NCBI RefSeq assembly: GCF_900107455.1
Contig: NZ_FNQB01000001.1
Location: 992,001-1,056,000, forward strand
DNA from: Asanoa ishikariensis
Lineage (GTDB): Bacteria > Actinomycetota > Actinomycetes > Mycobacteriales > Micromonosporaceae
Reading direction: 5' to 3'
Length of the DNA: 64,000 nucleotides
A program made the position numbers and the translations under genes. Shown here piece after piece: positions 36,385 through 38,428 of this stretch. Position 1 is the stretch's first letter, and every line of letters starts with the position of its first letter. A model generated the notes under the pieces. The model searched no databases and was not told the DNA's origin. It was given only the letters and a program-made list of their open reading frames with translations.

Positions 36385-36730
36385 CGGCCGGTCGCCCTCC
36401 CCGCGGTAGTGAATCGTCACCGGAAAGGGTAACCCGTGCGGCTCAGATTGCAACGGGCCGTTCGGCCGACTAGTCCCGTCCGTGGGACTGCTCTAGAGTC
36501 GCGACAGGTCTTACCCGGACCCGTGCGCGGGACCCTCCCCACAGTGTCGATCCGCGCACCGTCCGCGCCGTGGCCATGGGCCGGCGGTCCGTGGTGCTGG
36601 TGTGGTGTCCCGCCGGCGGGGGGTCGGCAGGACACCACACCACCGGCGTCCGCCCAGTTCGGTGACTTACCAGACCGTTACCAGTCGTCTATGCTCACGC
36701 CCCGAGAGTGGAGAACGACGGGATGCGACT
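36385..36730. promoter_or_regulatory. Divergent intergenic region with two inverted repeats
   Basis: This 346-bp gap separates the XRE gene and the small membrane protein. A 6-bp dyad AGTCCC-GTCCGT-GGGACT (36472-36489) is a candidate regulator site. A perfect 13-bp inverted repeat TGGTGTGGTGTCC (36598-36610) / GGACACCACACCA (36630-36642) with a 19-base GC-rich loop could be a hairpin or part of a short element. Plus-strand frames cross the gap, but their composition is not protein-like, so no gene is called. Confidence 0.5.
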
Positions 36731-37129
36731 ATGGCCCCACCAGAAGACCGCCCGGTTCCCAATCGACCAGGCGCGATAAGCCTGTTCTTCGTCGTGAAGG
36801 CCGCGATATTCGCGCTCGCCTTCTGGATCTGGCTGCTCGTCCTCGCCATACAAGGTGGCCAGGTCACCGGATGGCACGTGTTCGCCGCTTCCGGCGCGAT
36901 TACCACCACATTGGTCGGCATGATGTTGGCGATCCGGATGGCGTTGCAGGCGAATGCCGCCGACCGGCACGCCGAGTTTCGAAAAACACTCGTCGAGATT
37001 TCCTGGAACACCGCGTTCGCGGCGCATCAGGCCGAGGACGACGACGACACCGACAACGTCGTGCGCTTCCCGAGCGCGGTGCCGGACGAACCCGGCGGCT
37101 GGCCCACCCAGGGCGACCGCCGGCGCTAG
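36731..37129 (+). CDS. Small two-helix membrane protein, function unknown
   Basis: The 132-residue protein has two adjacent helices: SLFFVVKAAIFALAFWIWLL (about 17-39) and VFAASGAITTTLVGMMLAIR (about 53-74). A charged cytoplasmic tail (FRKTLVEISWNTAFAAHQAE, then DDDDTDNVVRFPS) follows. I do not recognise a family. Its TAG stop is formed by TA plus the first G of the MITE-like element; without the insertion the same TA would be followed by A, giving TAA, so protein length is unchanged. Confidence 0.75.
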   Translation: MAPPEDRPVPNRPGAISLFFVVKAAIFALAFWIWLLVLAIQGGQVTGWHVFAASGAITTTLVGMMLAIRMALQANAADRHAEFRKTLVEISWNTAFAAHQAEDDDDTDNVVRFPSAVPDEPGGWPTQGDRRR

Positions 37130-37294
37130 GGGGTGTCTCGTGGATCAAGGTGGTGCTCCGGCGAGGTCCAGGCGGCGTCCGGGCGTGCGCGGAGAGTGGT
37201 CGGACACCGGTGTTGTATCTGGCCGCTCTTCGCGTACGGTCGGTCGTCGTCTGGGCCCGGCGGAGTGCCGCCTTGATCCACGAGACACCCCCTA
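37127..37294. mobile_element. 168-bp MITE-like element flanked by TA
   Basis: Perfect 23-base ends, starting TAGGGGGTGTCTCGTGGATC at 37127-37149 and its reverse complement at 37272-37294, face each other. The match continues inward with mismatches. If TA is the target duplication, the element proper runs GGGGGTGTC...GACACCCCC, as in IS630/Tc1-mariner-type non-autonomous elements. No transposase gene is present. It lies exactly between two convergent genes, and both use TAG made of the flanking TA plus the first element base as stop. Its fold could end transcription from both sides. Confidence 0.8.
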
Positions 37295-38428
37295 ACCCAG
37301 CAGTTCGGCCAAGCGCGGTCGCACCTGCCAGGTGGTGACGAGCTCGTCGTACTCGGCGCGCGCCGTCGGTTGGCCGGTTCGGCGCGCACGCAGCAGCAGG
37401 TTTCGCGGCGTGTGCGCGGAGTCTATGAACTCCGTCACGTCGACCCGGTAGCCCTGCGATCGGAGCAACGCCGCCCGCAGCGAGTCGGTCAGCACGTCCG
37501 CGAAGCGCTCCCGCAGGATCCCCTGCCCGGTGATCAGGTGGTACGGACCGGGCGCGGTCTGCTTGCGCAACTGTGCGGCGATGTCGTGGTGGCAGCAGGG
37601 CGCGGCCAGGATCCATTCGGCGCCCCAGCCGACGGCGCGGTGCAGCGCCTCGTCGGTCGCCGTGTCGCAGGCGTGCAGGGCGAGCACCAGGTCGGGGGCG
37701 GGCTCGACCTCGGCGTCCAGGATGCTGCCGGCGACGAACCGCAGCCGGTCGGCGTAGCCCAGCCGTTCGGCCAGCCGGGTGTTCCGCTCCCGCTGGTCCT
37801 CGCGCACGTCGACGCCGGCCATCTCGACGTCCAGCCCGCGCACCGCGGTCAGCCAGCGGAACGCGGCGAAGGTCAGGTAGGCGTTGCCGCAACCCAGGTC
37901 GACCACCCGCAGCGGCGCCGGCAGCCCCTCGGCGGGCAGCGTCGCGGCCAGCGCCCGCAGGAACGCGTCGACCTGGCGCCGCTTGGCCGCGGTGCCGCCG
38001 ATCACCTCCCACAGCGGGTCACCCGGGTCCAGCAGGTGCTCACGCACCCGGTCGTGGGCCTCGGGTTTCGCGTCGGCCTCGTCGGCCGCCTGCCGGTGCA
38101 CCTGGGCGTCGCCCTTCTTGGTCACCCGCACCTGCACGGTCGCGCCGGCGCTTTCCACGTGCCAGTTGCCGAACGGCTCCGTGAGCAGGGCGTCGACCGC
38201 GGCTTCCGCGTCCGGCCCGGGTGCCACGTTGGTCGTGTGCGGGCGGGCGCCGTCGCTCGTGACGATCTGGAGCCGCCGCCCGGCCTTGAGCGCGACCGGT
38301 CGCAGCTCGGCTCGGACCACCGACGGGGTCGCGCCGCGCCGTCGGCCCGCGGCGACCGCTCGGGTCAGGGCGGGGTCGAGCAGCAGGTCGCGCACCTCGG
38401 CGAGGACGGCGGTCAGGTCTTCGGGCAT
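37292..38428 (-). CDS. SAM-dependent methyltransferase
   Basis: The 378-residue protein has a non-catalytic N-terminal half (about 1-165) and a class I methyltransferase domain: glycine loop VVDLGCGNAYLTFAAFRWL (about 178-196), acidic strand MAGVDVREDQRERN, and LVLALHACDTATDEALHRAV. The APCCHHDIA motif (about 285) recalls GSTCD/RNA-type methyltransferase-like proteins. The substrate is unknown. It starts two bases after the metallo-hydrolase gene stop, so the two are probably an operon. Its stop lies in the MITE end. Confidence 0.85.
   Translation of the reverse strand: MPEDLTAVLAEVRDLLLDPALTRAVAAGRRRGATPSVVRAELRPVALKAGRRLQIVTSDGARPHTTNVAPGPDAEAAVDALLTEPFGNWHVESAGATVQVRVTKKGDAQVHRQAADEADAKPEAHDRVREHLLDPGDPLWEVIGGTAAKRRQVDAFLRALAATLPAEGLPAPLRVVDLGCGNAYLTFAAFRWLTAVRGLDVEMAGVDVREDQRERNTRLAERLGYADRLRFVAGSILDAEVEPAPDLVLALHACDTATDEALHRAVGWGAEWILAAPCCHHDIAAQLRKQTAPGPYHLITGQGILRERFADVLTDSLRAALLRSQGYRVDVTEFIDSAHTPRNLLLRARRTGQPTARAEYDELVTTWQVRPRLAELLG

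Follow-up and report, generated by a model that had tools for sequence, protein, structure and literature searches.

The window, the whole 64,000-nucleotide stretch of Asanoa ishikariensis DNA that was analysed, carries at positions 37127-37294 a 164-bp near-complete palindrome flanked on each side by TA, as read from the sequence, and placed exactly at the stop codons common to two convergent genes. The two ends of the element are identical inverted repeats of 24 bases including the TA (a preceding sequence-only reading, which had noted the inverted ends and the TA flanks correctly, gave 23), and the palindrome extends beyond them nearly to the tip. Two occurrences of the 22-base end are present in the window, where none is expected by chance. 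Folded as RNA, the plus strand of 37110-37310 is predicted to reach -168.3 kcal/mol (z -15.5), a value equalled by none of 200 shuffles. The features of the locus are as follows.

36602..37129, plus strand: open reading frame ending at the left TA; start uncertain, sequence conserved in relatives
37127..37128, no strand: left TA, first two bases of the plus gene stop codon; a single TA in the empty sites of genomes G003, G005 and G001
37129..37292, plus strand: element, 164 bp; plus is the better-folding (G.U) strand
37129..37150, plus strand: left terminal inverted repeat, 22 bases
37145..37274, plus strand: core matched by covariance model R1 (G000:C2:1029145-1029274; 125.3 bits, the window copy being itself among the 23 source copies of R1)
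37208..37214, plus strand: apical 7-base loop CGGTGTT, identical in 22 of 23 aligned copies and CGGTGTC in one
37271..37292, minus strand: right terminal inverted repeat, 22 bases
37292..38428, minus strand: gene for a Methyltransf_32 domain protein, ending at the right TA
37293..37294, no strand: right TA, which with the last base of the element makes the minus gene stop codon

The plus frame stops at TAG (37127-37129), formed by the left TA and the first G of the element, and the minus frame at TAG (37294-37292), formed by the right TA and the last base of the element; that both genes end in TAG with the element present, as had been claimed, is borne out by the sequence and the reading frames. 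Neither Pfam nor NCBIfam matched the plus open reading frame. A further inverted repeat (GGTGTGGTGTCC ... GGACACCACACC, window 36595-36645) was spotted by eye upstream of the plus gene. With its length of 164 bp, its terminal inverted repeats, its multiple copies and no transposase, the element is a MITE, and it belongs to a large actinobacterial family.

Empty sites and copies

A 2.2-kb search of six genomes of the genus, followed by reading of the junctions, revealed an empty site with both stops intact in three of the five relatives. The junction of G003 reads GTCGC-TA-ACCC, with TAA ending the plus gene and TAG the minus gene, and so supplies the element-free orthologous locus with CTAA that had been predicted; the junctions of G005 and G001 read CGC-TA-GCC, with both stops TAG. 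The TA that is doubled around the element is present once in these three relatives. In G002 an element is present at the same TA but reversed relative to the window copy, and in G004 the flanks are split between separate contigs, so that the junction is not visible there. Copies and empty sites agree with the earlier proposal of a MITE-like insertion into a TA common to two stops that left both reading frames intact, and the conclusion holds that the insertion at the shared stop codon was harmless to both genes. The converse case, a fixed local hairpin with no other copies or with the same sequence at the same site in all relatives, is ruled out by the multiple copies and the three empty sites.

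The window copy (genome G000) and the G002 copy agree at 147 of 164 bases, whereas the nearest copies elsewhere reach 0.98 for the G002 copy and 0.97, within its own genome, for the window copy. Because each is closer to copies elsewhere than to the other, the two were probably inserted independently at the same TA; this fits better than an inversion in place, which was rejected. Gene conversion may also account for the difference. Directly beside the element of G002, in a CTAG, lies another insertion with ends TAGGGCTTTGTCA, where the contigs break (L113 1-325, L108 1-354); the two parts probably belong to a single insertion sequence divided between contigs, which brings the insertions at this stop-codon site to three. 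A second locus has unlike elements in G003 and in G004, separated by a few bases and immediately following a single stop codon, and the flanks adjoin without an element in the other four genomes (junctions read by eye in three, G000, G001 and G005).

The search for further copies that the sequence-only reading had proposed yielded, at the DNA level, eight full-length copies and one rearranged cluster in the window's own genome. Across the genus, the DNA search mixed subfamilies at 68-72% identity and was superseded by covariance model R1, which comprises the core without the ends and was built from 23 copies. All six genomes are matched by R1 (44, 31, 43, 32, 19 and 47 matches; 216 in total, opposite-strand echoes included). 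Among the matches listed of these 216, 101 copies were fetched (E up to 2.2e-12, primary strand, one listed match cut by a contig end being left out); nearly all are 154-170 bp long, and in most the two ends are identical at 15 or 16 of 16 bases. Removal of six that failed the end criteria and of two identical to another copy left the 93 analysed below; counts across them are not phylogenetically independent, and Fisher and sign tests are indicative.

In the family sample (Micromonosporaceae), R1 matches at least 55 of 121 genomes and at least 18 of 44 genera, and in the class sample at least 13 of 394 genomes and at least seven of 138 genera, own genome included; these are lower bounds, obtained with strict filters from up to 28 and up to eight scored candidates per genome, respectively. 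Class matches outside the own genome have E-values of 9e-12 to 6e-4, and the loci have their layout and short motifs in common with the element family, so that homology is likely rather than proven. For the class-level comparison the strand was set by the better fold in nine loci (L177-L185) and by the model in the others, and these loci were kept out of the asymmetry evidence. Four class-level hairpins (L194, L202, L209 and L212) have ends like those of an IS630-type element of G005 (CTAGTGTC...) and cores like the element family.

An exact 18-base scan of named genomes returned 14 stretches: five in Asanoa, one palindrome in Streptomyces roseus and eight others, which by eye are mostly chance or coding matches. 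Rfam 15 had no match to the window stretch at E up to 1; for 14 loci of copies and relatives it had eight at E up to 5, all below the gathering score, the best being microRNA-precursor models, i.e. long hairpins in general. Several variant forms were also seen. One copy has its middle part about three times in tandem (L009-L011, G000:C2:1730201-1730542), a diverged relative contains several repeats of a AAAGCGGCC...GTCGTGGCCGC unit (L012 and L017, G000:C7:201694-202044), and palindromes of about 40-55 bp consist almost of ends alone (L075 2118-2169 in S. roseus, L074 350-395 in Asanoa siamensis, L126 and L127); the last are probably internal-deletion forms.

Target site and gene ends

TA is kept on both sides in 44 of the 93 copies. 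With the element removed, 35 of these 44 leave YTAR, which reads TAR on both strands, and nine do not. The first and last bases of the element are G and C in 84 copies, A and T in seven and G and T in two; the purine-first, pyrimidine-last ends of nearly all copies restore a stop codon on both flanks, and the YTAR target together with such ends would permit harmless entry into the shared stops of convergent genes.

Placement at a stop codon is the rule in the element family. A neighbour's stop is abutted exactly by 57 of the 93 copies and two stops by 16, compared with 22 and four, respectively, of 128 background YTAR sites in the same flanks (about 291 kb from the same loci, the outer 300 bases per locus excluded). 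Genes were called with a simple codon-usage script trained on the window, which missed the window's plus gene, an error that here undercounts stop-abutting copies. Both stops of the uninterrupted site are still formed by the same bases in 14 of the 16 double-stop copies; among all stop-abutting ends, those bases are kept in 22 of 35 on the left and 26 of 38 on the right and are now lacking in 13 and 12, respectively.

An ordinary IS5-derived MITE might give the same picture if its hairpin were a palindromic by-product, its strand asymmetry (see below) an inherited accident and its placement the result of losing in-gene insertions in a genome that is GC-rich and poor in TA. YTAR is indeed rare in the flanks, as the background count shows, and other bacterial MITEs form hairpins beside genes according to the part of PMC3733652 on which we draw. 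However, the enrichment holds against non-genic YTAR sites as well (57/93 copies versus 20/99 sites at a stop codon), and a single inherited accident fails to explain core columns in which G.U, G-C and A-U replace one another and A.C is almost missing; we consider this account unlikely.

According to the script, the neighbouring genes are convergent for 30 copies, tandem for 49 and divergent for eight, with six copies in other settings. The excess of convergent over divergent settings and the very stable fold would suit a two-way transcription terminator, selected by the host to separate convergent transcripts, a role that the sequence-only reading had suggested. Against this, more than half of the copies are flanked by tandem genes, with the two orientations about equally frequent, three relatives lack an element at the site, and on reading the sequence the GC-rich hairpin expected of an intrinsic terminator is present whereas the run of T after it is absent. 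Host selection for termination thus seems improbable to us; termination, or protection of an RNA 3' end, may arise as a side effect of the insertion.

Probable transposase partner and matched ends

Genomes of the genus contain DUF4096-type insertion sequences with TA-flanked ends (e.g. GGGCGTGTCCTGCCGATCA, GGTCGCGTCTCTCGGATCA and GGTTCTGTTTTGCCGATCA), and in the two that were scanned both overlapping frames match NCBIfam transpos_IS5_3 above the cut-off. The ends of the element resemble these TA-flanked IS5-family ends (PF13340, NF033580). At least 15 of 18 bases match one of eight IS5 ends in 35 of the 93 copies, and the mean best match is 13.3, compared with 8.7 (largest 10.8) in 200 shuffled sets, the eight ends having been chosen after the copies had been seen. 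Two genomes of another genus (g44) carry CTAGGGCGTGTCTCGTGGATCATCGG, identical at 18 of 19 bases to the end of the window copy; one occurrence is followed by broken frames that look DUF4096-like by eye and the others are cut by contig ends, and no intact IS5 element with the exact ends of the window copy was found. None of the PF13340 loci in the own genome showed TA-flanked inverted ends. Outside the ends, the core has just short weak matches to the compared IS5 elements, and its derivation from them was rejected. We infer from the likeness of the ends that the element is moved in trans by IS5-family transposases.

The TA flanks had previously been taken to fit IS630/Tc1-mariner mobilization, with a matching IS630-type transposase to be sought. 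TA on both flanks is equally a property of the IS5-type elements here, whose ends are in addition similar. The IS630-type domain DDE_3 was detected among the six genus genomes in G005 alone (four copies) and so not in the own genome, and the G005 elements have ends of another kind, beginning CTAGTGTC. An IS630 origin of the window copy was rejected on these grounds, and we regard an IS630/Tc1-mariner MITE as very improbable.

The ends are variable, but the two ends of a copy match. Across the 93 copies, the outermost 16 pairs comprise 1444 Watson-Crick cells, 21 G.U, three A.C and 14 other, most of these positions occur as at least three different pairs, and there are 68 distinct 16-base left ends. 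The ends differ more between copies than the cores do, and left and right in step: for 38 copy pairs with cores less than 2% apart, left ends differ by 14% and right ends by 13% on average (correlation 0.93 between the two), against 2.6% between the left and right ends within a copy. In seven copy pairs, five of them involving L280, the cores differ by no more than 3% and both ends by 30% or more. Among 22 class-level loci compared, four, from two genomes of one genus, have ends nearer to IS630 (12-14 of 18 bases) than to IS5 (10-11), a comparison made without a shuffled control; this gives at most a hint of exchange of ends across transposase families.

Matched variable ends could also arise in place, without exchange, by copying of one arm from the other (quasi-palindrome correction) or through RNA pairing. 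L223 and L262, the only pair clearly inherited from a common ancestral copy, show nine differences, four of which make up two compensated pairs, one in the end repeat and one in the core, as such a process would predict. Two other changes in this pair break core pairs, however, and its ends have not changed faster than its core; arm copying should also erase the G.U mismatches of the core, yet these persist, and the ends are nearer to resident IS5 ends than shuffled ends are. An origin in place appears somewhat unlikely on balance.

The core is asymmetric between strands. When 37 copies were oriented by tip sequence alone, the CCGGTGT strand folded better in 36, with means of -153 and -113 kcal/mol for the two strands. 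In the 93-copy alignment, core pairs are Watson-Crick in 3299 cells, G.U in 608, A.C in 15 and other in 66, and when the whole element is counted, 36 paired columns have more G.U than A.C and six have less. In 23 copies, two-sided changes affect 35 of 50 pairs; cells with such changes number 150 versus 45 in shuffles, above all 500 of them, and at most 50 in slid versions, for a structure derived from the same alignment. These observations suggest that the foldability of one core strand is maintained even as the ends vary from copy to copy.

Among copies at a single stop codon, the gene is on the G.U strand in 19 and on the other strand in 22, so that there is no orientation bias and the hairpin was rejected as a sense 3' UTR of the upstream gene. 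Since the G.U bias is independent of gene direction, it lends no support to a host role, and the constraint on the core seems to belong to the element rather than to the host. Selection on an RNA would be the simplest cause of the asymmetry; folding of single-stranded DNA, strand-biased mutation or a partly inherited state may instead account for it.

Proposed model and known systems

The explanation that we favour, with moderate confidence, is an IS5-mobilized MITE with exchangeable ends and an RNA-like or single-stranded-DNA-like core. Such a non-autonomous element would depend for its movement on IS5-family (DUF4096, NF033580) transposases supplied in trans and recognizing its terminal repeats with their TA flanks, would insert at TA, mostly in a YTAR context, and at a stop codon would rebuild the stop on each side. 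Its core would be a long hairpin with one strand kept foldable as RNA or single-stranded DNA. Because a single core type is combined with many different matched end pairs, which might suit different transposases, the element looks modular. A bolder and more tentative version, on the doubtful side in our estimation, is that a conserved actinobacterial hairpin, RNA or single-stranded DNA, is a selfish unit that adopts both ends of whichever transposases are available, IS5-type here and perhaps IS630-type in another family, with the strand-specific core serving the element.

If the model is correct, the element separates two parts that are usually fused in a MITE, namely ends recognized by a transposase and a core under a structural constraint of its own, and provides a natural test of how non-autonomous elements switch transposases. 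A target that is a stop on both strands, YTAR, combined with ends that restore the stop would be a simple route to harmless insertion. Very strong hairpins, outside any Rfam family, lie exactly at gene ends in many genera of the Micromonosporaceae.

Literature searches, with subscription papers and preprints outside their scope, found no paper on the element or on this combination of features. Precedents exist for the parts: the portions of PMC3733652 used here describe hairpin MITEs, stop-codon ends of REP sequences and stems with G.T pairs, and those of PMC3049150 a hairpin repeat at convergent 3' ends. Bacterial MITEs such as RUP, NEMIS, ERIC and Nezha are, in the same portions of PMC3733652, short, non-coding and hairpin-forming, with inverted ends and positions beside genes, and are thought to be moved by transposases that recognize the ends, all as proposed here. 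Set against these families, which were compared by description alone, the present element has ends that vary within one core type, a strand-asymmetric core and most copies abutting a stop.

Partner-like elements of the genus resemble the IS427 group of the IS5 family in having two overlapping frames and TA-flanked ends, most members of the group having 2-bp direct repeats in the table of PMC3281130 that we consulted; the element differs in containing no transposase and in a core unmatched to the compared IS5 elements. REP sequences with a GTAG or CGTC tag are likewise palindromic, are found where neighbouring genes are convergent or co-directional, often contribute a TAG stop codon through their ends and have G.T pairs in their stems, but are 20-40 bp long with a one-sided tag, as outlined in the relevant sections of PMC3733652, compared with 164 bp and two IS5-like ends here, a length that places the element outside the REP size range. 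The SPRITE repeats of pneumococcus are also hairpins enriched near the 3' ends of convergent genes, and differ, in the passages of PMC3049150 cited, in having AAAA/TTTT ends that are very short and do not significantly match those of insertion sequences.
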